Assembly (NCBI RefSeq): GCF_004010955.1
Contig: NZ_CP025227.1
Span: 1,054,001 to 1,118,000 of the forward strand
Length of the DNA: 64,000 nt
Direction: 5' to 3'
Origin: Actinomyces wuliandei
Lineage (GTDB): Bacteria; Actinomycetota; Actinomycetes; Actinomycetales; Actinomycetaceae
The notes under the pieces: model-generated
The model's database searches: none
Told to the model about the DNA's origin: nothing
Seen by the model: only the letters and a program-made list of their open reading frames with translations
Made by a program: the position numbers and the translations under genes
Part shown: positions 10,603 through 44,212 of the stretch, one piece after another
Numbering within the stretch: the stretch's first letter is position 1
Layout of the letters: each line of letters opens with the position of its first letter

Positions 10603-11736
10603 TCAGTGGCCGATGTGCGCCTCCGGCTGGGCAGAGTCGCGGACCCGGGTGGGGTGGAGGCCCCCCTCGTCCGGGTTGACCTGGCTGGCGCTGATCCTGC
10701 CTGAGAAGACCTTGTAGCTCCAGATCGTGTAGGCCAGGACCCCGGGCATAAAGACCACCATGGCAGCCAGCATGATCATCAGCGTCGTGTCCGCGCTGGC
10801 GGCCTGTGTGAGGGTCAGGGAGTAGGCGGGGTCCACGGAGGAGCGCATCACGTCAGGCGCCATGGCGACGAAGATGAAAATGACGGCGAAGGCGATGCCC
10901 GCGAAGTGGAAGGCAAAGGCCTGGGTGCCTCGGTCGGCCCGGTTGGCGGCCAGGGACATGGTCAGCCCCAGCGCAGCCAGGGCCAGCGGGACCCAGGAGA
11001 GCATGCTGGCGGAGTAGACCAGCTGGGCCCACAGCGCCCACACCGCGGTCACGGCTGTCGAGGCCACCCCGAGCCGCTGCGAGGCGTCCTTGGCCCGCCG
11101 GGAGAGCTCTCCATCCGTCTTGATCCTGAGGAAGAGGGCACCGTGGCTGAGGAAGAGCAGGCAGGTGACGGCACCACCCAGGAGGGTGAAAGGGGTGAGC
11201 ATGGACCAGAAGCCGCTGGTGACCTGGTGCGCTGCCCCGCTGACCAGGCTGTCCGCCGGGACCTCGCTGGCGGGGACCACAGCGCCCGAGGCGGTCTCGA
11301 CGACCTCGACGTGCATGCCCTGGACCAGGTTGGCGAAGGTCACGCCCCACAGCACAGAGGGCACCCAGGCGGCCACAGTGTGGACCCAGTCCCAGCGGTC
11401 GCGCCATGACTGGGAGTTGATCTTGGGACGCCACTCGATGGCGCACACCCGGACGATGAGGCACAGGAGGATGAGGAGCAGGGGGATGTAGGCGCCGGAG
11501 AACAGGGTGCCGTACCACTCGGGGAAGGCGGCGAAGATAGTGGCACCGGCTGTAACCAGCCAGACCTCGTTACCGTCCCAGTGGGGGCCGATCGCCGTGA
11601 TCATGGCACGGCGCTCCCGCTCGTCACGGCCCAGGACTTTCAGGAGCATCCCCACTCCGAAGTCGAAGCCCTCCAGGGTGAGGTAGCCGACCCACAGGAC
11701 GGAGATGATGACGAACCACAGGACTGCCAGAGTCAT
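10603..11736 (-). CDS. cydB: Cytochrome bd ubiquinol oxidase subunit II
   Basis: Integral membrane subunit of the bd-type quinol oxidase, which reduces oxygen to water at high affinity without pumping protons. The 377 residues are strongly hydrophobic with about eight to nine helices. The N-terminus LWFVIISVLWVGYLTLEGFD and the following FGVGML are typical of CydB. It starts 19 bases after the cydA stop and is followed by cydD. The C-terminal tail of about 30 residues is polar and cytoplasmic by inference. Confidence 0.95.
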   Translation of the reverse strand: MTLAVLWFVIISVLWVGYLTLEGFDFGVGMLLKVLGRDERERRAMITAIGPHWDGNEVWLVTAGATIFAAFPEWYGTLFSGAYIPLLLILLCLIVRVCAIEWRPKINSQSWRDRWDWVHTVAAWVPSVLWGVTFANLVQGMHVEVVETASGAVVPASEVPADSLVSGAAHQVTSGFWSMLTPFTLLGGAVTCLLFLSHGALFLRIKTDGELSRRAKDASQRLGVASTAVTAVWALWAQLVYSASMLSWVPLALAALGLTMSLAANRADRGTQAFAFHFAGIAFAVIFIFVAMAPDVMRSSVDPAYSLTLTQAASADTTLMIMLAAMVVFMPGVLAYTIWSYKVFSGRISASQVNPDEGGLHPTRVRDSAQPEAHIGH

Positions 11737-11754
11737 GATGTGCCTGCCTTGTGC

Positions 11755-13260
11755 TCAGTAGTCGAAGGACAGGAGCGCCGGCGCGGCCGCGTCGTTGCTG
11801 GGGTCCTGGTCCCTCGGAGGTCTCTGGGTGCGTACGCCCTCACGGACGTAGCGTCGTAGCAGCATGAACCACACCATGCCCAGTGCTGCGTACAGGAGGG
11901 TGAAGATGGTTACTGAGGCCAGGACGGTACCTGCCGAGGCGGCGGTGGAGACCCCGTCAGCGGTGCGCATGTACACCTGGGAGACCGGGTCTGCCAGGTT
12001 GGGCACGACGACCCAGGGCTGGCGCCCCATCTCGGTGAAGATCCAGCCGAAGGAGCAGGCGACGAAGGGGAGCCACATCGTCCACAACGCCGCCCTGCCC
12101 AGCCACGGGCGGGTGATCAGCCTGTCGGACCGTAGCAGCCACAGGGCGAGCGCGCCGATGCCGACTGAGGCCATGCCCAGCCCGATCATGAGGCGGAAGG
12201 ACCAGAAGGTGATCATGACGTTGGGGGTGTAGTCGGCCTCCGCCGCGCCGGGCTCGTGCGCCTGGATGTAGTCGCTGTACATCTGCTGGGCGTCGTCCAG
12301 GCCGGTGAGCTCAGCGTTGACGTCGTTGGTGGCCATGAAGGAGTAGACCCCGGGAACCGAGATGAACCGTGTCATCCCGGTGTCGCAGTCGCCGAAGGCG
12401 ACAGCGGTGAACGGCGCCCGGGACTCGGTGTGGCACAGTCCCTCTGCTGCTGCCATCTTGGCGGGCTGCTCCTCGGTCACCAGGTGGCCCTGGAAGTGTC
12501 CTGACACCGCCGTGGCCAGCCCGGCGGCAAGCATGACGGTGGCGCCCAGCCGGGTGGTGCGCCGCCACAGGTGGCGGGCCTCGTAGTCCTGGTCGGCGCG
12601 CGCGGCCCGGGTCATCCACCACACGGACACCCCCAGGACCACCGTGCCGGCCACGAGGAGGGCCGAGGTGAGGACGTGGGTGGCCGTGGTCCACAGGATG
12701 GGGTTGGACAGCACGGCGACGAAGCCGGAGAAGCCGTCAAGCTCGGCGCGGCCGGTGTCCGGGTTGATGACGGCCCCCACGGGGTGCTGCATCCAGGAGT
12801 TGGCCGCCAGGATGAAGAAGGCCGAGAAGTTGGTCCCTGCGGCAACGGCCCACATGCACAGGTTGTGGAGCCTGGGGGAGAGGCGGTCCCAGCCGAAGAT
12901 CCACAGCCCCAGGAAGGTGGACTCCATGAAGAAGGCGAGCAGGGCCTCGAAGGCCAGAGGGGCACCGAAGATGTTCCCGACGAAGCGAGAGTACTCCGAC
13001 CAGTTCATGCCGAACTGGAACTCCTGGACAAGACCGGTGGCAACTCCCAGGGCGAAGTTGATGAGAAGGATCTTCCCGAAGAACTTCGCGGCGACAAGCC
13101 ACTGCTCGTTGCGCGTGCGCAGCCACAGCGCCTCCATGAGGGCGACCATCGGGGACAGGCCGATGGTGAGAGGCACGAGGATGAAGTGGTAGACGGTCGT
13201 GATGCCGAACTGCCAGCGAGCCAGGTCGAGGGAGTCCAGCGCCAGCGGTGCGATGACCAT
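11755..13260 (-). CDS. cydA: Cytochrome bd ubiquinol oxidase subunit I
   Basis: Haem-bearing catalytic subunit of cytochrome bd, accepting electrons from quinol at the outer face of the membrane. The N-terminal DLARWQFGITTVYHFILVP contains the first haem-ligand His; HVLTSALLVAGT holds the second conserved His region, and the GRQPW motif of the quinol loop is present. ATG 13260 gives 501 residues and has AAAGGTGG upstream; the in-frame GTG 9 bases earlier sits on top of that site. It is the first gene of cydABDC, behind a promoter-like element with an overlapping palindrome. Confidence 0.95.
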   Translation of the reverse strand: MVIAPLALDSLDLARWQFGITTVYHFILVPLTIGLSPMVALMEALWLRTRNEQWLVAAKFFGKILLINFALGVATGLVQEFQFGMNWSEYSRFVGNIFGAPLAFEALLAFFMESTFLGLWIFGWDRLSPRLHNLCMWAVAAGTNFSAFFILAANSWMQHPVGAVINPDTGRAELDGFSGFVAVLSNPILWTTATHVLTSALLVAGTVVLGVSVWWMTRAARADQDYEARHLWRRTTRLGATVMLAAGLATAVSGHFQGHLVTEEQPAKMAAAEGLCHTESRAPFTAVAFGDCDTGMTRFISVPGVYSFMATNDVNAELTGLDDAQQMYSDYIQAHEPGAAEADYTPNVMITFWSFRLMIGLGMASVGIGALALWLLRSDRLITRPWLGRAALWTMWLPFVACSFGWIFTEMGRQPWVVVPNLADPVSQVYMRTADGVSTAASAGTVLASVTIFTLLYAALGMVWFMLLRRYVREGVRTQRPPRDQDPSNDAAAPALLSFDY

Positions 13261-13741
13261 CAGCGCCACCTTTCAAAGATGACAATGGAGTTAGCAGGAG
13301 CGTCGCGACACGAGCCGCGGGGGACTCTGGTCCCAAAGTGTAGCGGCTCACTGACGGTTTGTCACAAACGGAGCGAAGTACAGCTGTGCTGTTACCGCAA
13401 GACCTGTGCCGGCTGTGGGTGCGGGTCAGGGACGTGGGGGGTGCGGGTCGGGGACGTAGGGCGCGCTACTGCCCTGGGGAGAGGGGCGGGTGTGGAATAC
13501 TTGCGCAGGTCCCGGGCGTCCCGTACCGATGTCTGGGGCAGGCACCCTGGGACGACCTCTTCCGGGAGCCTCGCGCCGCTGCAGGCGCCGCCGCGAGCCC
13601 GGCCTGTGCAGGCGTCAGGGGTGTCAGCGCCCACTAGCGGCGTACGCGACAGACTTTGTGGGTGCTCCTTACCGACAGGAGCGTGACCGTGCCGGACCGC
13701 CGGGGGTACGACGGCGGCGACGGCACCCGGACAACCTCGAT
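13261..13741. other. Divergent intergenic region between cydA and rne
   Basis: About 480 bases without a convincing gene. The cydA half holds a promoter-like element and a 13-bp imperfect palindrome (13337-13369). The rne half (about 13380-13741) is GC-rich and contains no reading frame with family resemblance; it may be a long rne leader, as RNase E mRNAs are often autoregulated through their 5' UTR, but no specific structure is claimed. Confidence 0.5.
13337..13369 (-). promoter_or_regulatory. Candidate cydA promoter with overlapping palindrome
   Basis: On the minus strand, GTGACA (-35-like, 13365-13360), a 17-base spacer and TACACT (-10-like, 13342-13337), about 70 bases before the cydA start. 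The -35 hexamer lies inside GTTTG-TGA-CAAAC (13357-13369), an inverted repeat with 5-bp arms. A repressor bound there would block the promoter. The core resembles half of redox-repressor (Rex-type) sites, but the match is partial. Confidence 0.4.
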
Positions 13742-16540
13742 ATGGCACGACGTACAGCAACAGAAGAAGACCACGGCGACCACAGGCCGCAGGAGGTCTC
13801 CCAGGGGTCGGCGACGCAGTCGGCCGACCACCACACGGTGTCAGCTGCGGCACCCCAGGAGGCTCCCGCTGCGGGGCCCCAGGACAAGGGCAACGAGGAG
13901 CCCCCGCGTCTTCCGGCGGCCTCGCTGCTCTTCCAGGCTCCTGACCCCAGCCGGGCGCGTCGCCGCAGGCGGGTCACACAGCAGTCTGTGGCACCAGACC
14001 CGGCCCCTGCCGCCTCCCGGCGTGCCGCGACCGCGCTGCGCGGAGGCTCTGGTGCTCAGCAGCAGGAGCCGACACAGGACAGAGACAGTCAGGACCCCGC
14101 CGCAGATGGTGCTGGCGGGACCGGAGGCTCGGTGGGTGGGAGCTTCTCGGGACCGGGCTCCTCGTCTGGACCCAGGCGGGGCCGCCGTCGCGCAGCCGCG
14201 GAGGAGTGGTCCCCGCAGGGCGAGGAGGAGATGGACGACAGCACGGGCAGCGGCACACGCGCAGACGCTGCCCGTGCTGACGAAGGCGAGCAGCCTGAGC
14301 AGACCGAGCAGGCCGAGTCCAGTGGGAGCCGCAGGCGTCGCCGCGGCAGCCGGGGGCGCCGCTCCCGCTCACGTACCGGTGCCGACGCAGAGGCAGTGGA
14401 CTCAAGCAGCCAGGACAGTCAGGGCAGAAGCCAGGACAGGGGCGGCACGTCGTCGCGGGAACCTGGTGACACCGGGCGGGAGGCTGCCGAGGACGTCCCT
14501 GACGCCTCGGAGGACTCCTCGACCTCCTCGGTCCCACGCCGCCGCCGTCGTTCGCGCACGCGCACGGAGCCAGGTCGGGAGGCCCGTGACGAGGTGACTG
14601 CGCTCAAGGGCTCGACCCGACTGGAGGCCAAGCGTCAGCGCCGTCGCGAGGGACGGGCTGCTGGCCGCCGCCGCAGCGTCGTCACCGAGGCCGAGTTCCT
14701 GGCCCGCCGTGAGAGCGTGGACCGGCAGATGATCGTGCGCGAGGCGGACGGCCTCAACCAGATCGCCGTCCTGGAGGACGGGCTGCTGGTAGAGCACTAC
14801 GTTGCTCGGCACACCCAGACCTCCATGGTCGGCAACGTCTACATGGGCCGGGTCCAGAACGTGCTGCCCTCAATGGAGGCTGCGTTCATCGACCTGGGCA
14901 AGGGGCGCAACGCCGTCCTCTACGCCGGCGAGGTTGACTGGGAGGCGGCCGACGCCGCTGGTCGGCCTCGCCGTATCGAGGACGCCCTGTCCAGCGGGGA
15001 CACGGTCCTGGTCCAGGTCACCAAGGACCCCATCGGGCACAAGGGGGCGCGGCTGACCAGCCAGGTCACCCTGGCCGGGCGCTACCTGGTCCTTGTCCCT
15101 GGGGGCAGCATGACTGGGATCTCGCGCAAGCTCCCCGATACCGAGCGGTCCCGGCTGCGCAAGATCCTTCAGCGCGTGGTCCCCGAGTCCGCAGGCGTGA
15201 TCGTGCGTACCGCCGCCGAGGGCGCCTCGGAGGACCAGCTGGCCGCCGACGTGGCCCGGCTGGTCTCCCAGTGGGAGGCGATCGACAAGAAGGCGGCCTC
15301 AGTGCGTAAGGGCAGCACCAAGGTCCCGGTGCTCCTCAAAGGGGAGCCAGAGCTGGCGGTGCGGGTCGTGCGGGACGTCTTCAACGAGGACTTCCGCAGG
15401 CTGGTGGTCTCCGGGTCCACCGCCTGGAAGACGATCTCCGGCTACGTCAACGACCTCAGCCCCGACCTGGCTGACCGCCTCGAGCACTGGACGAGCCCGG
15501 AGGACGTCTTTAGCGCCCACCGTGTGGACGAGCAGCTGGCCAAGGGCTTCGACCGCAAGGTCTGGCTTCCCTCTGGCGGGACCCTGGTCATTGACCGCAC
15601 CGAGGCGATGACCGTCATCGACGTCAACACCGGTCGGTTCACCGGGGCGGGCGGTACCTTGGAGGAGACGGTCACCCGCAACAACCTTGAGGCGGCCGAG
15701 GAGATCGTGCGGCAGCTGCGGCTGCGCGACATCGGCGGCATGATCGTCATCGACTTTGTCGACATGGTCCTGGAGTCCAACCGCGACCTGGTGCTGCGAC
15801 GTCTTGTCGAGTGCCTGGGCCGGGACCGTACCCGGCACCAGGTCACTGAGGTCACCTCGCTCGGTCTGGTGCAGATGACCCGCAAGCGCGTGGGACAGGG
15901 TCTGGTCGAGGCCTTCTCCACCACCTGCGAGACCTGCAGAGGCCGAGGCTTCATCGTGCACGACGAGCCGGTGGAGAACCAGCAGGTGGACATGTCCGCC
16001 TCCGCCTCGCGGGGAGCGGGCAAGGGGCGCGGACGCAGGAGCAGGGAGACCGGGTCCGGTCGGGACGCGGCACGTGCGTCCACCTCCGGGTCCAAGGCTG
16101 CGGACAGGTCCGCCAAGGAGGCGAGACAGGCCGGTCCCTCTGACCAGGACCAGGCCAAGGACCCGGGGCAGGCTGTGTCAGAGGTCTCCCCGGTGGTCTC
16201 CGTGACCTCCCAGGAGGAGGCGCGCTCCACGGTCCGCGGTGCCCTGGCCCAGATCGCCGCCGCCACCGAGCAGGCCCACCAGGCCCACGGAGACAGTGGG
16301 AACAGTGCGAGCAGCAGTGGGGATGGTGGGAGCAGCGGGAGCAGGACTGGCGCTGGGACTGGGACCCAGGCCAGGAGGCCCCGACGGCGTCGGGTCGTGA
16401 CCACCGAGGTGACCGCACCGCAGCCGGCGGCCCCGTCACCGGCTGTCGCACCCACGACTGCGTCTGCTGGCGCGCGGGCGGCCGGCACGCAGGCTGACGG
16501 CGACAGCGCTGCCAGCACCGTCGGCGACAGCACTGCCTAG
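13742..16540 (+). CDS. rne: Ribonuclease E/G
   Basis: Endoribonuclease central to mRNA turnover and rRNA/tRNA processing. The catalytic core starts near residue 328 with an S1 domain (RQMIVREADGLNQIAVLE, GNVYMGRV). The DNase I-like site has the magnesium aspartates in IDVNTGRF (about residue 625) and IVIDFVDM, followed by the Zn-link TCETCRGRG (about 728). The N-terminal 320 residues and the C-terminal 190 are disordered, Arg/Ser/Gly-rich and acidic-basic mixed, as in high-GC actinobacteria. ATG 13742 (MARRTATEEDHGD) is the best start although no clear ribosome site precedes it; the frame is open further upstream, so the start is uncertain. 932 residues. Confidence 0.93.
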   Translation: MARRTATEEDHGDHRPQEVSQGSATQSADHHTVSAAAPQEAPAAGPQDKGNEEPPRLPAASLLFQAPDPSRARRRRRVTQQSVAPDPAPAASRRAATALRGGSGAQQQEPTQDRDSQDPAADGAGGTGGSVGGSFSGPGSSSGPRRGRRRAAAEEWSPQGEEEMDDSTGSGTRADAARADEGEQPEQTEQAESSGSRRRRRGSRGRRSRSRTGADAEAVDSSSQDSQGRSQDRGGTSSREPGDTGREAAEDVPDASEDSSTSSVPRRRRRSRTRTEPGREARDEVTALKGSTRLEAKRQRRREGRAAGRRRSVVTEAEFLARRESVDRQMIVREADGLNQIAVLEDGLLVEHYVARHTQTSMVGNVYMGRVQNVLPSMEAAFIDLGKGRNAVLYAGEVDWEAADAAGRPRRIEDALSSGDTVLVQVTKDPIGHKGARLTSQVTLAGRYLVLVPGGSMTGISRKLPDTERSRLRKILQRVVPESAGVIVRTAAEGASEDQLAADVARLVSQWEAIDKKAASVRKGSTKVPVLLKGEPELAVRVVRDVFNEDFRRLVVSGSTAWKTISGYVNDLSPDLADRLEHWTSPEDVFSAHRVDEQLAKGFDRKVWLPSGGTLVIDRTEAMTVIDVNTGRFTGAGGTLEETVTRNNLEAAEEIVRQLRLRDIGGMIVIDFVDMVLESNRDLVLRRLVECLGRDRTRHQVTEVTSLGLVQMTRKRVGQGLVEAFSTTCETCRGRGFIVHDEPVENQQVDMSASASRGAGKGRGRRSRETGSGRDAARASTSGSKAADRSAKEARQAGPSDQDQAKDPGQAVSEVSPVVSVTSQEEARSTVRGALAQIAAATEQAHQAHGDSGNSASSSGDGGSSGSRTGAGTGTQARRPRRRRVVTTEVTAPQPAAPSPAVAPTTASAGARAAGTQADGDSAASTVGDSTA

Positions 16541-35725: not shown

Positions 35726-36166
35726 CGGCGGCAGACGGGGACGAGTCCTGAGGCGTCCCTGCGGTGGCGTAGCCAGGAAGCGAAGTGCCGGCCTGACCCT
35801 GTGCGGTGTGCCTCGTGGCGGGTGCGGGAAGCGCCCGCCGATCTGGCCCCGTTTCCTCCTGCTCCCGGTCCTGTCCTGTGTGCCCGCTGCTGACAGTGGT
35901 GTCGGTGCCCTCCCCGGAGGCTCCAGACGTTTCTCGCGGTGCTCCGGGGTGCAGGACTATAGGTAGGTTCACTGATGCGGGGAGAATTCTGCTGGTGGCC
36001 CTGTAAACGGGTTCTGGTGGCGCCGACCACTGGCTGTGTATCGGTTCTGTAAAAGTGTCTTCTTTTTGGTGTTGAGTGGTTGCGGTCTTTGCTGGGGCGT
36101 CAATACTGTTGGTTGTCCGGTGCCTGCGGCGTCGCGGGCGTGCTTGGTCTCGAAAAGGTCTTGTCT
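35726..36166. other. Intergenic region upstream of adhesin
   Basis: About 440 bases without a convincing gene and lower in GC than its surroundings near 35960-36170. It holds a hairpin (35817-35839) that may end the preceding transcript and a weak promoter-like pair TTGCGG (36080-36085) and AATACT (36102-36107) with a 16-base spacer before the adhesin start. Confidence 0.45.
35817..35839 (+). terminator. Hairpin after the acidic-tail gene
   Basis: GGCGGGTGC and GCGCCCGCC form a 9-bp stem with one G-U pair around loop GGGAA. There is no T-run behind it. Confidence 0.35.
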
Positions 36167-39100
36167 ATGAAGTCTATTGCCGTCCGTGCGGCTGTGTCCT
36201 GTGGGGGGGCCGTCCGTGCTGGTGCCTGTTTGGTCCTGCTGGTCATGGTGGTGGCCGTGGTGGTGCCGGTCCTGGCGCCTGCGCCTGCGCATGCTGATGT
36301 CAACACAGGTATCAAGGTCACTAACCTGGCGCTGGTCAAGACGGACTCTGCGGAGAACCCGCTGTCTGGAAGGATGGAGACTGAGTCCATCGCGCTGCTG
36401 ACCTTTGACTGGGACGCTGGTGGCGCTGATCTCAAGGACGGGGACTCATTCTCCATCGACCTGCCTGAGGAGCTCAGGTTCCGGGTTCCCCAGACGCGTG
36501 CCTTCACCCACTTTGTTGATGGGGTGGAGACGGAGGTCGGCACTTGTGTCATTGGTCAGGCCAGCATGGTCTGTACCTTTAACGAGGTGCTGCCCAGGCT
36601 TATCGGGCAGGGGTACAAACAGCCGTCGGGGTCTGGCAAGATCCAGGTGTACGCGGCCAAGGCGACCACGCAGGAGGAGCTGTCCTTCACTGTCAACGGC
36701 TCCGAGACCGTCATGGTGGACCTGCCTGGTGAGGGTGGTATTGGGGTTCGGGGGCGGAGGTACACGCCTGAGACCCTGCTCAAGGGTGCCAACGCTATGT
36801 CTGAGCAGTCGACGGGGGTGACCTGGAGCATTATCTTCAGCACTGACAGGCTCCAGCCAGAGTACGCCAGGAACGGGGTGGACGTGACCTTTGACGGCCG
36901 GACCGTTCACGAGATCGAGCTCACTGACGTCATAGGGCCAGGACAGACCTACCCTGAGGACCTGAGTCGGTGGCGCCTCACCCGGCACAACTCTGCCGAC
37001 GAGCCGAACCCGCAGACAGCCGAGGTGGTCCTGGCCAGTGCTGCGGAGGGCTCGCGGGTCACTGACATGGGTGAGTTCAGCATCAAGGTGACCTACAGTG
37101 AGGAGGCGGACTCCGGCCAGAGCGCCCGGATTGTGCTGACCGGCCCGTTCGCTCCCCAGACTAACTACCGGGTGATCTACGAGTCCAGGGCCACGACTGA
37201 GGACGGCAAGGCTGTGCCCGGGTTCGTCTATGAGAACTACGCGTCTATTGACGGCACCAGCTTTGAGCGTGACGCGACCAAGTCCTTCCTGGACTCCTTC
37301 TCCCTGACGGTCAATATGCAGGCGGGCTATGGGACCTTCTCCCTGGACAAGTACGTGACCGGTCCGGCTTCTGACCAGGTGCCTGCGGGCTCCACCTTCA
37401 CGGTCAACCTGAGCTACCAGCTGCCTGAGGGCGCGACGCGGTCGACCTACCCGGAGTGGGAGCCGCCGGGGACCCTCAACGCGGACCAGACCGGGGGGAC
37501 TGCCTCCTTTGAGGTGGTCATGGGGCGTAAGAACGTCTTCGTGGGGCCGAACCCGTCGGTGACCTTCCCGGCGGGGACTGTGGTCACCTTGAGCGAGGCC
37601 GCCCCGTCGGTGGTCCTGCCTGAGGGCTACAGCTGGGGTGAGGGCCTGTTCGTGGTGGGTGGTGTGCCCACCACCACCTTGACGATCGCTGACCAGCAGG
37701 TCGTGGGTGCCTCGCTGACCAACCAGGTCAGGGCCGAGCCGTCCACCTTCGAGGTCGTCAAGACCGTTGACGGTGCCCCGGGCGCGGAGTCCAAGGACTA
37801 CTCCTTCACCTACACCTGCTCCGACGGCACCGAGGGTGCCCTGACAGCCAAGGGTGACGGCACCCCGGTGCGCGCCACCGACTCCTTCGAGGTCGGCACC
37901 ACCTGCACCATCGCGGAGTCCACTGAGGGTGCTGAGGTCAGTGGCTACGACCTGGAGGCCCCCCTGTCCCAGCGTGTGCGTGTCACTGCTGGGACCACCA
38001 GCGTGGCCCGGGCTGAGTTCACCAACACCTACACGCCCCGCACGGGTACTTTCACGGTGGCTAAGACGGTGGCTGGTGAGGGTGACTTCGCCCTGGAGAA
38101 GTTTGCTTTTGACTATGTCTGCTCTGATGGTAGTGAGGGCAGGCTGGAGGTCTATGGCACTGGTCGTGCGGTGAGCAGTCCTGAGGTTGCTGAGGGTGCT
38201 GTCTGTGAGATCAGTGAGGACGCGGACTCTGCTGCCAGGCAGGGCTACTCCCTGGAGAGCGAGCTGTCGGCCTCGACGGTGACCATCTCCCAGGACGCTC
38301 CTGTGGCTGTGACTGCGGTCAACACCTACACCAGGGAGGAGGGCACCTTCTCGGTGGCCAAGTCCGTGGCTGGTGACGGTGACTTCTCCGGTGACACCTT
38401 CGCCTTCGACTACACCTGCTCCACGGGTGAGAGCGGCACCCTCCAGGTCCCGGCCGACGGGACCGCGGTGACATCGCCTGAGCTGCCCGCAGGCGCCCAG
38501 TGCGAGGTGAGCGAGCAGGCTGACTCCGCCGCCAGGCAGGGCTACTCCGTGGAGTCGGGGCTGTCCAGCGGCCAGGTGACTGTCGTCAAGGGCGAGGACA
38601 CGCCCGTGACCGCCACCAACACCTACTCCCAGGACACGGGGACCTTCTCGGTGGCCAAGTCTGTGGCTGGTGACGGTGACTTCGGGGGCGCCACGTTCTT
38701 GGTGGCCTACCAGTGCGTGCTGCCTGACGGGTCCACCAGCGCCGACACGCTCAGCGTCACTGGCGGCTCCTCCGTGGCCGGCCCGGTCCTGCCGGTGGGC
38801 ACCCAGTGCGTGGTGAGCGAGGAGGACGCCTCCCGGGCTGGCTACGCCCTGGCGGCCAGCACGAGCGTGGACGGCCAGGTGGGCTCCTCCTTCGTCATCG
38901 CCAAGGACGCTGTCTCCGAGGTGGTGGTGACCAACACCTACGCCCAGCAGAGGGGCGGCTTCCAGGTGGCCAAGACGGTGGAGGGTGACGCCTCCGCCGC
39001 TGCGCCGGAGGAGTTCGTCTTTGACTACGCCTGCACCACCGATGACGGTACCAACCCTTCTGGTGAGGTGGCCCTCAGGGGCGGGGAGGTCGTGGGCGTG

Positions 39101-40363
39101 GAGGTGCCCGTGGGTGAGTGCGTGGTCACCGAGCGTGACGCCTCGGTGGGCGGGGCCGACCTGGCCACCACGGTCACCGTGGACGGCCAGGCCACCCAGG
39201 GGGAGGCTGACCAGGCCACGGTGACCGTGACCGAGGGGGCTGCTGTGGCGGTGGAGGTCACCAACACCTACACCGCCCACCGGGGCACCTTCTCGGTGGC
39301 CAAGACCACCGAGGGGCTGGCCGAGGGTGACGGGCTGGGTGAGCGGGAGGTCTCCTTCTCCTACACCTGCACCGACGGCTCCCAGGGCAGCCTGGGTGTC
39401 AGGGCTGGTGGCCAGGCCGTCCAGGCCGGGCAGAGCTTCGCGGTGGGTACTGAGTGCACCGTCACCGAGGTCGAGGGCTCGGCCCAGGTCGAGGGCTACG
39501 ACCTGGCCGCGCCCGGGCCCCAGACGGTCTCGATCTCGGAGCAGGGTCAGGTGGCGGCCACCTCCTTCACCAACACCTACACCCCTGACACCGGCAGCCT
39601 CACGGTCACCAAGGCCGCCACCGGGGCCGACGAGGAGGTCGAGGGCAAGGAGTTCTCCTTCTCCTACACCTGTGACGACGGCTCCCAGGGCAGCCTGGTG
39701 GCCAGGGCCGACGGACAGGCCGTGGACGCCGGGGCCAGCATCGCCCTGGGCAGCCAGTGCACGGTCTGGGAGGACACCGACGCCGCGGCCATCGAGGGCT
39801 ACGACCTGCAGGCCCCACAGGACCAGAAGGTCACCGTGGACTCCACCGACACCCCCGGCGTGGTCAACATGACCAACACCTACACCAAGCAGGCAGACCC
39901 GGAGCCCAGCCCGGGTGACGAGACGACTCCCCCCTCGCAGGAGCCCACCAGCGAGCCGACCACACAGCCAACCGGCCAGGACGGTCAGGACGGCCAGAAT
40001 GGTCAGGACGGCCAGGACGGTCAGGACGGCCAGGACGGCCAGGACGACCAGAATGGCCAGAATGGTCAGGACGGCCAGAATGGTCAGGGCGGCCAGAATG
40101 GTCAGGACGGCCGGGACGGCCAGGACGGCCAGAATGGTCGGGACGGGCAGAATGGTCGGGACGGCTCGTCGGCCTCACCCAGCCCGGCCCCCTCAGCAGC
40201 GGCGGGTGGCCCAGCCACCGGCTCGGATGAGCCCCGGACGACCTCACCGGCCCGTCCCACGGGGTCCCTGGCCAGGACTGGTGCCACGGTCCTGCTCCCG
40301 GTCGCCGTCGCCCTGGCAGCAATTGCCGGAGGGGTCGCGCTCCTGCGCCGCCGCCGGTCGTGA
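36167..40363 (+). CDS. Large cell-wall-anchored repeat adhesin with LARTG sorting signal
   Basis: Surface protein of 1398 residues. The signal peptide ends APAHA (about residue 45). The N-terminal 480 residues resemble bacterial adhesin/collagen-binding folds (SIDLPEELRF, TYRVIYESRATTEDG-type strands). From about residue 525 to 1241 there are seven domains of about 100 residues, each opening near TNTYT and GTFSVAKTV, with two Cys and a closing NTYT; these match DUF5979-type stalk domains. A Gln-Asp-Gly-Asn tract follows (1268-1332). The end is LARTG (1368-1372), a hydrophobic segment and RRRRS. LAxTG is the motif of class E sortases; no sortase gene is in the window. ATG 36167 has AAAAGG upstream. 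Confidence 0.85.
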   Translation: MKSIAVRAAVSCGGAVRAGACLVLLVMVVAVVVPVLAPAPAHADVNTGIKVTNLALVKTDSAENPLSGRMETESIALLTFDWDAGGADLKDGDSFSIDLPEELRFRVPQTRAFTHFVDGVETEVGTCVIGQASMVCTFNEVLPRLIGQGYKQPSGSGKIQVYAAKATTQEELSFTVNGSETVMVDLPGEGGIGVRGRRYTPETLLKGANAMSEQSTGVTWSIIFSTDRLQPEYARNGVDVTFDGRTVHEIELTDVIGPGQTYPEDLSRWRLTRHNSADEPNPQTAEVVLASAAEGSRVTDMGEFSIKVTYSEEADSGQSARIVLTGPFAPQTNYRVIYESRATTEDGKAVPGFVYENYASIDGTSFERDATKSFLDSFSLTVNMQAGYGTFSLDKYVTGPASDQVPAGSTFTVNLSYQLPEGATRSTYPEWEPPGTLNADQTGGTASFEVVMGRKNVFVGPNPSVTFPAGTVVTLSEAAPSVVLPEGYSWGEGLFVVGGVPTTTLTIADQQVVGASLTNQVRAEPSTFEVVKTVDGAPGAESKDYSFTYTCSDGTEGALTAKGDGTPVRATDSFEVGTTCTIAESTEGAEVSGYDLEAPLSQRVRVTAGTTSVARAEFTNTYTPRTGTFTVAKTVAGEGDFALEKFAFDYVCSDGSEGRLEVYGTGRAVSSPEVAEGAVCEISEDADSAARQGYSLESELSASTVTISQDAPVAVTAVNTYTREEGTFSVAKSVAGDGDFSGDTFAFDYTCSTGESGTLQVPADGTAVTSPELPAGAQCEVSEQADSAARQGYSVESGLSSGQVTVVKGEDTPVTATNTYSQDTGTFSVAKSVAGDGDFGGATFLVAYQCVLPDGSTSADTLSVTGGSSVAGPVLPVGTQCVVSEEDASRAGYALAASTSVDGQVGSSFVIAKDAVSEVVVTNTYAQQRGGFQVAKTVEGDASAAAPEEFVFDYACTTDDGTNPSGEVALRGGEVVGVEVPVGECVVTERDASVGGADLATTVTVDGQATQGEADQATVTVTEGAAVAVEVTNTYTAHRGTFSVAKTTEGLAEGDGLGEREVSFSYTCTDGSQGSLGVRAGGQAVQAGQSFAVGTECTVTEVEGSAQVEGYDLAAPGPQTVSISEQGQVAATSFTNTYTPDTGSLTVTKAATGADEEVEGKEFSFSYTCDDGSQGSLVARADGQAVDAGASIALGSQCTVWEDTDAAAIEGYDLQAPQDQKVTVDSTDTPGVVNMTNTYTKQADPEPSPGDETTPPSQEPTSEPTTQPTGQDGQDGQNGQDGQDGQDGQDGQDDQNGQNGQDGQNGQGGQNGQDGRDGQDGQNGRDGQNGRDGSSASPSPAPSAAAGGPATGSDEPRTTSPARPTGSLARTGATVLLPVAVALAAIAGGVALLRRRRS
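39973..40165 (+). repeat. 9-bp-period minisatellite in adhesin
   Basis: Tandem units of the type GGCCAGGAC GGT and CAGAATGGT encode QDG/QNG tripeptides for about 190 bases. All units keep the frame, so gain or loss changes only stalk length. Such tracts are prone to copy-number change. Confidence 0.8.
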
Positions 40364-40600: not shown

Positions 40601-42304
40601 TCATGTCGCGGAAGGTGCGGTGCAGTTGTTGCGCCACATCCAGGGGGTGTCGGAGAGCTCGTCGGGGGTGGGTTCCAGGGTGGCCAGGACGTGGGTCAGC
40701 GCCTCCCGGGGCTGGTCCAGGGGGGCGCGGTTGCGGGGGCGCCGGTAGGTGGTGATCAGGCGGTCGAGCTGGCGCATGCTGAGGGGGAGGTGGCTGACGG
40801 GCAGACCGTGCTCCTGGCCGCGTGTGGCCAGGAGTGCCAGGCCCAGGCGTACGCCGACAAGCTGGGGCTCGTGGTCCCAGGGCAGGAGGTGGGTCTGGCC
40901 GTTGACGTGGGTCAGCTCCATGCCCTTGCGGGTCAGGGCGACCTCCTGGGGGCGGGGCAGGCCGGGACCCAGGCGCGCGAGTGTCTCGGCACCGGTGTAC
41001 AGGCTCAGGGCGCCCAGCGCGTTCACGACGAGGGACGCCCCCGGTTCCTGGACAGTGCGCATGAGGACGCTCATGAGCAGTGCCAGCACGGTGATGGTTG
41101 CGGGCAGGCAGGCCTCCCACCAGGCCATCTCACGCGGGGGTGTCATGACCACGCAGCGTCGCCGCTCGTCCCAGTGCCACAGGCTGCGCCACCGTGACAG
41201 GGCCGCCACCAGTCGCCACCGGGCCAGTGCCAGGGAGACCAGGACCAGGGACGTGACGGCAAGGAGGGCTGCCGTGCCGGGCATGGCGGCGCGTAGTGCC
41301 AGGACGGCTGCCACCGAGGCCGCCAGGGCGAGGGCAGCGCGCACCGGTCCGCCGCGTCTTCTCCTCTGGTCGGTCCTGTCTGGTGGGAGCCACGGGATCC
41401 ACTCCCTGCCCTGTGGGCGTGGGCTCCTGGGGGCTGGTGCGTCTGGGAGGGGTGGGCTGGGTGGTTGTGGGGTGTGCTGCCACATCCAGGGGGTGTCGGC
41501 GAGCTCGTCGGGGGTGGGCTGGAGGGTGGCTAGGACGTGGGCCAGGGCCTGGGGCTGGTCCAGGAGGGTGCGGTTGCGGGCGGGCTGGTAGGTGGCCAGC
41601 AGACGGTCGAGCTGGCGCATCCCGATAGGCAGGTAGACATGAGAGAACCTGTGGTCCTGGCCTCGGGCGGTCAGGAGCACGTGGCTGCGCTGGACTCCGG
41701 TGAGGCGGGGGCGGTGCCCCCAGGGCAGGAGGAGGGTCTGGCCGTTGACGTGGGTCAGCTCCATGCCCCTGCGGGTCAGAGCGACCTCCTGGGGGCGGGG
41801 ACGGCCATGACGCAGGTGTGAGAACGTCTCGGCGCCGGTGTACATGCCCAGGGCGCCCAGCCCGCCCACGGCAATGGAGGAGTCCAGGGGCTGGAGGGAG
41901 AAGACCACGACGGCGACCGGCGGGGCCAGGACGGTGATAGCCAGGGACAGGCCGACCTCCCACCAGACCATCTCGCGCGGGGGTGTCAGGACCACGCAGC
42001 GCCTGGCGGGGTCCCAGGACCACAGGTCCGGCCAGCGTGACAGGGCCACCAGCACCCGCCACTGGGCCACAGTCGCCCCGATCATGAGCAGGGTCATGAA
42101 GGCGAAGAAGACGACCATGCCGTACATCGCCCCGGCAGACGTCAGGACCGTCGCCGCCGCCGTCAGCACGGCAAGGGTGGCAATAAACGGAACTCCTCGT
42201 CTCCTGCCCCGGTCGGCCTTCTCCGGTGGGACCAGTGTGTTCCAGCCCCAGCCCCTGCTCCGGGGGCGAGACCTCCTGGCCCGTCTCAGACCTAGGCGAG
42301 GCAC
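40601..42304 (-). CDS. Tandemly duplicated membrane protein of unknown function
   Basis: A 567-residue protein made of two copies of one module. Each has four hydrophobic segments in two pairs, RRCVVxTPPREMxWWE between them, GAL(G/S)xYTGAET, then a soluble part RPQEVALTRxGMELTHVNGQT and MRQLDRLxxTY, ending with PTPDELxDTPWMW. The soluble part has the texture of a bacterial PH domain. The copies are also alike at DNA level, offset by about 850 bases, so the duplication is recent. GTG 42304 has GGAGGGG upstream. It is the last gene of the WXG/LXG-like cassette, 81 bases behind it; an immunity or secretion-accessory role is inference. Confidence 0.7.
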   Translation of the reverse strand: MPRLGLRRARRSRPRSRGWGWNTLVPPEKADRGRRRGVPFIATLAVLTAAATVLTSAGAMYGMVVFFAFMTLLMIGATVAQWRVLVALSRWPDLWSWDPARRCVVLTPPREMVWWEVGLSLAITVLAPPVAVVVFSLQPLDSSIAVGGLGALGMYTGAETFSHLRHGRPRPQEVALTRRGMELTHVNGQTLLLPWGHRPRLTGVQRSHVLLTARGQDHRFSHVYLPIGMRQLDRLLATYQPARNRTLLDQPQALAHVLATLQPTPDELADTPWMWQHTPQPPSPPLPDAPAPRSPRPQGREWIPWLPPDRTDQRRRRGGPVRAALALAASVAAVLALRAAMPGTAALLAVTSLVLVSLALARWRLVAALSRWRSLWHWDERRRCVVMTPPREMAWWEACLPATITVLALLMSVLMRTVQEPGASLVVNALGALSLYTGAETLARLGPGLPRPQEVALTRKGMELTHVNGQTHLLPWDHEPQLVGVRLGLALLATRGQEHGLPVSHLPLSMRQLDRLITTYRRPRNRAPLDQPREALTHVLATLEPTPDELSDTPWMWRNNCTAPSAT

Positions 42305-42385
42305 ATTCCCCTCCAGGGGTGCTCCAGACGGCGCGCACGGGAAGATACTGGGGGTGCTGGCCGGGCGGTGGGCTGGCCCCGCCTG

Positions 42386-43567
42386 CTAGCCGAAGACATG
42401 GCGCCAGGCCGAGGTGGCCTTGTCCGAGACCCAGCTCCCCGCGTCCCTGAGGCCCTCGTCAATCTTCTCCCGCGTGCGCAGGGGCACCAGGCTCTCATAG
42501 GCCCACCTCGCACCGATGCCAGCAACAGTGCCACCTGCAATGGCTGCTGCGGCTAGCAGCCAGGCGGGAGCCGTCGTCAGGGTCAAGGCTGTCGCCACTG
42601 CACCTACCGCCGCTACTGCTGCAGCTCCTCCCGCTGCTCCTGCAACGGTCTTCACCGCCACGGAGCTGGGGGAGTCGCCCTGGGAGATCTCCCAGCCGGA
42701 CATGGCCAGGGACAGGACGACCCCGCCTGCCGTGGCCGCCCGGGAGGCGGCCGTGGCTACGGGTCCCATCTTGGAGGCGGCCGAGGCCTGAGCCCTCCGG
42801 GCCACGTTGTCCGACTTGGGGGCTTGTTTCCCCGCCTGTACCTTCGGGTTACCCGAGGCTGCCGCCGCCCGGGCGGTGGCTCCTGGGGTGGCCTTCTTGA
42901 CCAGGGAGTAGTAGGCCGCACCCAGGTAGGCGTTCTCGATCCCGTTCTGCGCCACCTGGGACGCGGTCTGCGACAGGGCCTCCATGGCCACCTCGAAGAG
43001 GGGCGACTCCCCGCTGACCACCATGTTGGTCTCCGCCCAGGTGGTGAGCTTGTCGCGCACGTCCTGCACGTCACCGGAGAGCCTGTTGAAGAGCTCGACC
43101 TTCTTCAGGTAGGCCTCATAGGCGGTGTTGTCCGCCTCCCACTGCGTCTTCTGCGCGGCTGTGGCGTCCTTGGCCAGCTCTCCCGGGGAGCCCACTGGGT
43201 AGGGGGCCTCGATCAGCATGCCGCTGACCGTCAGGCCGCCCTGGGTGGCCTCGTCGCGGTAGCCCGCCATGTCCTCCTTGCGCCAGGTGATCTGGTCGCC
43301 CCAGGAGTGGATGACGTCGATGAAGGTGCCCAGCTCGTCACTGGCACTGTCACAGGCGGAGGACAGCTCTGTCGCGTAGTCCTCCACGGCCTGGCCGAAC
43401 TCGCCGGAGATCTCCGTCCAGTAGGTGGAGGAGTCGCACAGGTCGGTGTCGGCGTCACTGAAGCCCGTCTGGAGCTTCTCCAGCCAGTCCGCCGCAGAGT
43501 GGACCTCCTGCGCGCTGGCGTCGATCTCCGTGTCGATCGTGGCCACGCACACACTCGTGTCAGTCAC
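42386..43567 (-). CDS. LXG/WXG-like protein with C-terminal glycine-zipper region
   Basis: A 393-residue protein with a helical N-terminus (about 1-215: TYWTEISGEFGQAVEDY, WGDQITWRKEDMAGY) like type VII secretion substrates of the long WXG/LXG kind, an Ala/Lys/Gln linker (about 225-280) and a hydrophobic Gly/Ala-rich segment (about 310-360: AGAAGGAAAVAAVGAVA, IAGGTVAGIGARWAYESL) of glycine-zipper type. No classical signal peptide. GTG 43567 has AGGAGGTG 6 bases upstream and overlaps the preceding small gene by 8 bases. A membrane-inserting secreted effector is a plausible but unproven role; no known toxin domain is recognised. Confidence 0.6.
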   Translation of the reverse strand: MTDTSVCVATIDTEIDASAQEVHSAADWLEKLQTGFSDADTDLCDSSTYWTEISGEFGQAVEDYATELSSACDSASDELGTFIDVIHSWGDQITWRKEDMAGYRDEATQGGLTVSGMLIEAPYPVGSPGELAKDATAAQKTQWEADNTAYEAYLKKVELFNRLSGDVQDVRDKLTTWAETNMVVSGESPLFEVAMEALSQTASQVAQNGIENAYLGAAYYSLVKKATPGATARAAAASGNPKVQAGKQAPKSDNVARRAQASAASKMGPVATAASRAATAGGVVLSLAMSGWEISQGDSPSSVAVKTVAGAAGGAAAVAAVGAVATALTLTTAPAWLLAAAAIAGGTVAGIGARWAYESLVPLRTREKIDEGLRDAGSWVSDKATSAWRHVFG

Positions 43568-43859
43568 CGGACACCTCCTGCGCCAGCGCCCTCAGGTCGG
43601 CGGCGACGTCCTCATCAACCCCGGAGACCAGGTCCACGCCCGTGCGCGTGCTGCTGGCACCGTGGGCTGCCGCCTGCCCGAAGGTCCCCGCCGCCTCAGC
43701 AAAGAGCGTGAGCGCGTAGGCGATGTAGCCGGTACCCTCCCCACCGTTGACTGAGGAGGGCATGGTCGCGGCGTTGGCCTCCAGGCTGTCCTGCGCGTTG
43801 TCAAAGGACCTGGCCACCTGGCTGGCTGCGGCGTAGTCGATCTCCAGCTGGCTGCTCAC
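43560..43859 (-). CDS. WXG100/EspC-like small helical protein
   Basis: A 99-residue all-helical protein (SSQLEIDYAAASQVARSFDN ... TRTGVDLVSGVDEDVAADL). Size, N-terminal helix and central turn (SVNGGEG) fit WXG100/EspC-type partners of type VII systems, although the Trp of WxG is absent. GTG 43859 has GGAGGAGG upstream and overlaps the stop of the preceding gene (GTGA). It likely pairs with the long protein encoded by the next, overlapping gene. Confidence 0.55.
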   Translation of the reverse strand: MSSQLEIDYAAASQVARSFDNAQDSLEANAATMPSSVNGGEGTGYIAYALTLFAEAAGTFGQAAAHGASSTRTGVDLVSGVDEDVAADLRALAQEVSGD

Positions 43860-44212
43860 CGCAGGGCCTCCTCCGTGCTGGGCGCCTGGGGCGGCGCCTG
43901 CCGCCACAGCTCGCGAGGCATCTCCATGTCCAGGTAGATGACGTCATAGGGCTGGGTGGCTTCCAGCTCGTGCAGCCTGTCGGTACGGCACAGCACCCAG
44001 GGCTGGTGCGGCCCCATGCACTGGGCGAGGCGGTCCAGCGCCGTGTAGGCCAGTAGCGCCACACGGCCGTCCTTGGTCTGACGCATCTCAACATCGGTGC
44101 CCCAGTTGGTCGTCTGGCCGGTGGAGGGCAGGTAGAGGACCGGTGGCACCGGCCTGCCCGCTGCTCCTACGGGGGGTGGCTGCTGACCGTCGAGGAAGAG
44201 AGGTGACTCCAT
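43856..44212 (-). CDS. SAV_915-like protein
   Basis: A 118-residue soluble protein reading PPVLYLPSTG, VEMRQTKDGRVALLAYTALDRLAQCMG, QPWVLCRTDRL and YDVIYLDMEMP. This matches the SAV_915/SseB-like small proteins of actinobacteria, which often sit beside type VII-type WXG genes; the molecular role is unknown. It is the first gene of the four-gene cassette, directly behind a promoter-like element with CGCTACGC direct repeats. Confidence 0.65.
   Translation of the reverse strand: MESPLFLDGQQPPPVGAAGRPVPPVLYLPSTGQTTNWGTDVEMRQTKDGRVALLAYTALDRLAQCMGPHQPWVLCRTDRLHELEATQPYDVIYLDMEMPRELWRQAPPQAPSTEEALR

Follow-up and report, generated by a model that had tools for sequence, protein, structure and literature searches.

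A 64,000-nucleotide stretch of the Actinomyces wuliandei genome (contig NZ_CP025227.1, positions 1,054,001 to 1,118,000; hereafter the window) contains four genes that an earlier note, made from the sequence alone, had proposed to be a type VII-like cassette with a possible pore-forming substrate. We confirmed the four open reading frames (ORFs), which lie on the minus strand in the order SAV_915, small protein, long protein of 393 amino acids (aa), and membrane protein:

43856-44212, minus strand: SAV_915-domain protein, 118 aa; candidate export chaperone for the effector head.
43560-43859, minus strand: small helical partner, EspC/WXG100-like, 99 aa, with an HxxxD/ExxhxxxH-type export signature on its C-terminal arm.
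42386-43567, minus strand: candidate effector, 393 aa, with a WXG100-like head (~10-187) and a hydrophobic Ala/Gly-rich tip (~281-382).
40601-42304, minus strand: candidate immunity protein, 567 aa, consisting of two fused membrane-protein copies.

The cassette had been described as packed with overlaps. This holds for three of the genes: the SAV_915 stop and the start of the small gene share 4 bp (GTGA), and the small gene overlaps the 393-aa gene by 8 bp. The membrane gene stands apart, starting 81 bp past the end of the 393-aa gene. Among the four proteins, only SAV_915 passes a Pfam/NCBIfam cut-off. The host genome is a single contig of 3.1 Mb.

The four-gene order recurs. Two more copies of the cassette lie in the same genome, at ~184-187 kb and 2.047 Mb, and the long protein is matched, whole or in part, in 33 of 213 genomes of the family (genome counts use thresholds of 1e-3 for the effector, 1e-5 for the membrane protein, and 1e-60 for EccC). 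Loci were compared in 70 stretches, comprising the window, L026-L034, and L069-L128; the last were picked from long-protein matches in family genomes and are not a random sample. These stretches hold 72 ORFs that match the head, and dropping eight with a match of ~90 residues or less leaves 64. The C-terminal tip seen in the window protein (window-type tip) is carried by 27 of the 64, with the small gene upstream in 27 cases, SAV_915 upstream in 26, and the membrane gene downstream in 26; all four genes stand in order in 25 of the 27. The four genes thus co-occur in relatives, and the recurrence of the cassette is beyond chance. Across the class, the long protein is detected at E ≤ 1e-8 in 16 of 394 genomes, that of A. 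wuliandei included, and its relatives are present in three other bacterial families. Among 12 long-protein loci outside the family, L168, L195, and L197 have the four-gene order; the membrane match of L195 is weak (E 4.5e-5) and the window-type tip was not found there. Homologue searches returned three proteins, including the query, from the single long-protein sequence, 93 from the 27-row alignment, and four, the window's own included, from the membrane-protein alignment. At five loci (L071, L073, L077, L081, and L083) the effector gene of the cassette class is split and the membrane genes are retained.

The earlier note had called the long protein LXG-like, an assignment that we reject: the protein has no match to PF04740 at E ≤ 1, and LXG is absent from the seven families matched at E ≤ 0.01 by a 50-member alignment of the window protein and 49 homologues. 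In this alignment, 29 members match WXG100 (PF06013; best E 3.7e-06) and 15 match T7SS_signal (PF21725) at the same threshold. The W of the WXG motif is nearly invariant and the G, G55 in the window protein, is invariant. In the PDB, the long-protein profile also retrieves ESAT-6-like and EsxA chains (E 4e-05 to 0.0015). Judged by its homologues, the long protein appears to be WXG100-headed rather than LXG. The structure prediction suggested in the earlier note models the helical head with more confidence than the tip. The head forms a helical hairpin (residues 19-50 and 55-109, with G55 at the turn), a short beta hairpin, and a long helix (137-187); the predicted local distance difference test score (pLDDT) of ten-residue blocks is 63-98 across residues 11-180. 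A fold search with the effector model gave no match at E ≤ 0.001. PPE chains superpose on the model with a root-mean-square deviation near 3 over ~156 residues, and BAR domains tie with them in Z. A [YWF]xxx[DE] export motif considered on the long protein (W95-D99) was dropped, only 23 of 62 heads having the motif.

The tip comprises a hydrophobic Ala/Gly-rich stretch with transmembrane (TM)-like segments at residues 312-330 and 335-353, followed by a tail whose consensus (27 rows) contains AYExxVPLExRExIDEG. Of 27 tips, 26 contain a TM-like segment, versus 14.0 expected from shuffling; among 27 heads, one does. The same enrichment is seen in 29 relatives with other tips, which have such a segment in 21 tips (9.1 in shuffles) and in no head; some of these relatives have striking Gly-rich repeats. 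The statement that no known toxin domain is recognisable was borne out by Pfam and NCBIfam scans of the window protein, in which the tip has no Pfam domain over the cut-off and no NCBIfam domain; one of the 50 aligned members weakly matches Bacteriocin_IIc (E 0.0076).

The window-type tip was not found in 37 of the 64 head-bearing ORFs. Of these, 29 are longer than 300 aa and three are split genes of the window class. The remaining eight do not exceed 300 aa, and some ORFs are at the end of a contig (L100, L101, L107); in such cases a tip or membrane gene could have escaped detection. No enzymatic toxin domain was found at E ≤ 0.01 by Pfam in 20 of the 37 other-tip head proteins, whose sole matches are to Gly-zipper, WXG100, RTX, C19orf12, and DUF6861, each below the cut-off.

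The predicted duplication of the membrane protein was upheld, its halves being 53% identical. The first half is modelled at a pLDDT of 83; it has four long helices of TM type and, at its C-terminus, a beta domain together with helices. A Pfam scan of 28 membrane proteins matched ten families, each in a single member and none convincing; DUF443 was not among them. A fold search with the model of the half gave no match at E ≤ 0.001, and a further ranking listed ZnT/YiiP transporters, a designed channel, and ferritin-like bundles. Rows for the Staphylococcus aureus proteins TsaI, ExiC, and ExiD were not found in this ranking, an absence that excludes nothing.

Membrane ORFs number up to six per locus, some of them fused (for example 567, 651, 844, 900, and 916 aa). 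Their presence goes with the tip: the membrane gene accompanies 26 of 27 ORFs with the window-type tip versus four of 37 without it, two of these four being split genes of the class. At the level of genomes, the membrane gene occurs in 23 of 24 with the window-type tip (defined from match ranges in the long-protein search; in G038 the membrane protein is matched in part, E 9e-7) and in 14 of 189 without. Ten of the 14 lack any long-protein match and seven lack EccC at 1e-60. Nine orphan loci (L201-L209) have the membrane gene and no match to SAV_915, the small protein, or the effector in the stretch. Conversely, detached window-type tips stand between membrane genes, for example in L084, L091, and L095. 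Because the head bears other tips and both tips and membrane genes occur as orphans, the family has the marks of a polymorphic toxin with candidate immunity genes. The same data bear on another explanation, in which the long protein is a structural or signalling substrate of ESX that is anchored in the membrane of the producing cell, where the membrane protein serves it as receptor or assembly partner and not as an immunity protein. The hydrophobic tip with its conserved tail motif could serve as an anchor, and the beta domain of the membrane protein is well modelled. Such a role leaves unexplained the tandem membrane genes, the orphan tips, the exchange of tips on one head, and the membrane genes in effector-less genomes, some without detected EccC; we regard it as distinctly unlikely.

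The identity of the SAV_915 protein was verified (NF042914, 81.7 bits versus a cut-off of 40, residues 41-97). An SseB N-terminal domain is matched at E ≤ 0.05 by 13 of 29 aligned SAV_915 members, with the window protein below the cut-off, and the SAV_915 profile retrieves one weak row from the PDB, a putative glycerophosphodiesterase (E 0.0026). The label EspC-like for the small protein stands for part of its family: PF10824 is matched at E ≤ 0.05 by five of 31 aligned members (best 7.5e-06), and the small protein of the window matches no Pfam family at this level. The small-protein profile reaches EsxA/EsxB chains (E 0.004-0.008), with designed and coiled-coil rows scoring better. The window protein has the HxxxD/ExxhxxxH export signature as given in PMC10765036 (this and most other papers cited here are represented by the available portions of their text). 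The D/E column of the signature is kept in 57 of 58 small proteins and the full signature in 31, compared with at most 19 for a hydrophobic triad at slid anchors. A [YWF]xxx[DE] motif near the end of the small protein was dropped, being present in 21 of 58.

SAV_915 is found in 46 of 394 class-wide genomes. With a model of the cassette-type SAV_915, L168, L172, L177, and L158 score at E 1e-10 or better and the rest at 1e-7 or worse. Because of this gap, one branch of SAV_915 seems to go with the cassette, L158 excepted. At six loci of another family (L159, L161, L162, L165, L166, and L167; genomes of 6.8-9.7 Mb, presumably Streptomyces), SAV_915 stands beside a gene of 443-452 aa with a similar N-terminus, which may be a second genomic context for SAV_915.

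To ask which partner follows which part of the long protein, we compared distance matrices of 25 cassettes by partial Mantel tests; one of the 25, L081, has a split gene whose head is partial. After conditioning on the head, tip distances correlate with those of the membrane protein (0.43, p 0.0005) but with those of neither SAV_915 (0.05, p 0.33) nor the small protein (0.01, p 0.44). After conditioning on the tip, head distances correlate with those of the small protein (0.88) and of SAV_915 (0.62). On a tree of 61 heads, the presence of SAV_915 requires two changes versus 20.6 with shuffled labels, and five cassettes without a detected window-type tip retain SAV_915 (L106, with an ORF of 152 aa, L114, L117, L119, and L123). 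The small protein and SAV_915 thus track the head and would act as partners of its export, whereas the membrane protein, alone of the three cassette partners, is also tied to the tip and is hence the immunity candidate.

SAV_915 could instead be a soluble cytoplasmic immunity protein that covers the tip before export, as ExiAB and TipE do for EsxX and TelE, with the membrane protein guarding the outside. SAV_915 is small, adjacent, and upstream of 26 of the 27 same-tip ORFs, and the tips of L114, L117, L119, and L123 look Gly-rich, so that it might be a general partner of Gly-rich tips; moreover, the available text of PMC12744356 describes two immunity pairs for EsxX, one soluble and one in the membrane. 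An immunity role for SAV_915 is nevertheless unlikely, as the protein follows the head and not the tip in the matrix comparison, and its presence follows the head tree, including the five cassettes just named.

No EccC-type ATPase had been seen in the window, and we confirmed its absence there; two matches that exceed the family cut-off are located at other places in the genome. One of them (167-169 kb, 702 bits) belongs to a T7SSa core (T7SS, type VII secretion system) at ~167-180 kb that also contains EccB, two WXG100 proteins over the cut-off, an S8 protease, and two EccD matches, of which one passes the Pfam cut-off and the other falls below it. About 16 kb separate this EccC match from the effector gene of the second cassette. 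Across the 213 family genomes, EccC is found at E ≤ 1e-60 in 31 of 33 carriers of the long protein versus 42 of 180 non-carriers. Within the genus, carriers make up 12 of the 13 genomes that have the high-scoring EccC type and none of the nine that have the 490-530-bit type alone; this count leaves aside three genomes, one a carrier, whose EccC is weaker or partial. The nearest long-protein match lies within 20 kb of EccC in five of 14 genomes, versus 0.74 for random placement; this test used genomes with a match and EccC on one contig, counted head-only matches, and includes two near-copies (G000 and G017). The genomes in all these comparisons are related, and p-values therefore overstate their independence.

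The second EccC over the cut-off is at 282304-284949 of the genome, and a below-cut-off EccC-like ATPase lies in a 1746-aa frame at 2800627-2802723. Each has sub-threshold WXG100 matches within ~15 kb, and both are possibly other T7SS variants. Right after the S8 protease of the core (L027:3351-7636; ~179.9-184.1 kb of the genome), a 132-aa gene and a 446-aa gene are followed by a run of small membrane-like proteins of 181, 185, 133, and 192 aa, the first two of which start near-identically. Neither Pfam (E ≤ 0.1) nor the head model gives a match to the 446-aa protein; the gene set looks like another effector with tandem immunity genes.

An effector with its partner and immunity protein, exported by a system encoded elsewhere, had been the proposal of the earlier note, and the T7SSa core and the co-occurrence of the four genes, the absence of either of which the earlier note had named as refuting, favour it. 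We consider it probable that the long protein is an antibacterial effector exported by the T7SSa, that its tip inserts into the membrane of the target, and that the membrane protein confers immunity. From the computational evidence we infer binding, secretion, toxicity, pore formation, immunity, and a bacterial target, which would combine as follows. The small EspC/WXG-like protein would pair with the WXG100-like head in a helical bundle that carries the export signal. In the cytoplasm, SAV_915 would bind this head complex and serve it as a dedicated chaperone, in a role like that of EspG or EsaE; taken alone, this assignment has about an even chance of being right. The EccC channel of the T7SSa would then export the effector complex, and the hydrophobic tip would insert into the membrane of a neighbouring bacterium, producing a small channel or depolarisation. 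In the producer's own membrane, the polytopic membrane protein would block the tip, and tandem or fused copies would widen the range of tips resisted.

Several observations weigh against this model. The membrane protein also correlates with the head given the tip (0.67), which is what common descent by itself would produce, and on related sequences partial Mantel tests are liberal. The window long protein itself has no PF06013 match at E ≤ 1, and its WXG motif reads I53-S54-G55, with the W lost. The pLDDT of the tip is below 50 over most of residues 304-393. The glycine zipper announced in the earlier note is present in the window tip as one strict motif (residues 342-350); across the family it barely exceeds composition-matched shuffles (19 of 27 tips versus 14.2), as it does in relatives with other tips (26 of 29 versus 24.1), and we therefore do not use the pattern as support. 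The window cassette is ~0.9 Mb from the T7SSa core, and two carriers (G015 and G042) lack EccC at the threshold. Finally, a head-bearing gene lies near SAV_915 in three of 20 loci outside the family (L168, L172, L177) and is missing in the other 17, so SAV_915 is not bound to the cassette system everywhere.

The target could also be a host cell. ESX systems of mycobacteria act on hosts, and many Actinomyces are host-associated. The immunity-like arrays and orphan membrane genes argue for a bacterial target: membrane genes that are dedicated, multiplied, orphaned, and follow the tip fit protection from attack by kin, and the long protein has relatives in three other bacterial families of the class. 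A host-directed effector is thus improbable.

The antibacterial effector model has counterparts among characterised systems. The EsxX/LapX3-4/ExiAB/ExiCD system of the S. aureus T7SSb (PMC12744356) has, as proposed for the cassette, an effector with a helical head and a hydrophobic, depolarising tip, small helical partners, a soluble partner, and polytopic membrane immunity proteins, found as orphans too. The cassette differs in its WXG100-type head, its single EspC-like partner, its T7SSa core, SAV_915 in place of DUF5085, and a membrane family without a convincing Pfam match. TspA/TsaI of the same secretion type in S. aureus shares a locus distant from the T7SS core (PMC7456083, PMC9484751) and strings of 2-16 membrane immunity genes downstream of the toxin, with a toxin fragment inside the string (PMC9484751); TsaI, however, is a DUF443 protein, whereas the ten families matched in 28 membrane proteins of the cassette class do not include DUF443, and the immunity candidates here include fused multi-copy forms. 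The behaviour of the orphan and tandem membrane genes and of the tip fragment matches that described for ExiCD and the TsaI strings (PMC12744356, PMC9484751). TelE/TipE of the Streptococcus gallolyticus T7SSb (PMC10434224) resembles the cassette in a Gly-rich C-terminus, which in TelE is membrane-damaging and weakly like bacteriocin IIc; unlike the long protein, TelE has an LXG head, and its immunity comes from a soluble DUF5085 protein. The PE-PPE-EspG system of mycobacteria is also among the closest known systems. By analogy, our best reading is that the cassette would work in the mode of EsxX, TelE, and TspA with unrelated parts.

WXG-headed polymorphic toxins of Actinobacteria, with a variable tip and immunity genes, were predicted in 2012 (Zhang et al. 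2012, PMC3482391). The available text of that paper names oral Actinomyces for having more immunity proteins than toxins and describes Ntox38 as an actinobacterial, WXG-linked, non-catalytic tip. Its named pore-forming tip, Tox-WTIP, is by contrast proteobacterial and tied to type II secretion (T2SS) or PVC, and the window-type tip, the SAV_915 partner, and the membrane family were not found in that text. A 2023 review (PMC10765036) says in its available text that T7SSa has no associated LXG proteins and notes that PE/PPE can bear variable C-termini. A 2024 survey of T7SS variants (PMC11217815) links Rhs toxins with T7SSa and covers T7SSc-j with candidate toxins; in its available portion the substrates are Rhs, LXG, and others and not a WXG-headed cassette family, and 'Actinomyces' does not occur in its text. 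Among the matches listed in searches of the open literature on SAV_915, actinobacterial T7SS, and antibacterial T7SS toxins (titles and starts of abstracts), no description of the cassette was found. Nor were the window-type tip, the membrane family, or the SAV_915 partner seen among these matches.

More tentatively, and with the odds somewhat against so broad a statement, Actinomycetaceae may wage bacterial warfare through T7SSa with a large family of membrane-inserting toxins; SAV_915 would then be a new class of T7 substrate chaperone, EspG-like and serving WXG-headed toxins, and the tandem or fused four-helix membrane proteins a new immunity family. Membrane-depolarising T7 effectors with immunity arrays have been characterised for the T7SSb of Bacillota. 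A compact, repeated cassette in Actinomyces would make it testable whether non-mycobacterial ESX serves competition, would assign a function to one SAV_915 branch and to membrane proteins that lack annotation, and might partly account for the surplus of immunity proteins described in oral Actinomyces (PMC3482391, available text).

Other gene sets and neighbours were recorded. Two consecutive sets at ~2.328-2.337 Mb (L031:6135-9870 and 10776-14508), 4641 bp apart, each consist of a 102-aa gene, a 445-aa head-bearing gene, a lipoprotein-like gene (187 and 186 aa), and a 307-aa gene, with the same starts and near-same lengths. Within the window, a response regulator/histidine kinase pair lies upstream of the cassette. 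Downstream and convergent with it, on the plus strand at 36080-40363, is a gene for a 1427-aa surface protein that combines eight DUF5979 stretches with a Gly-rich, collagen-like region and an LPXTG-like C-terminus.

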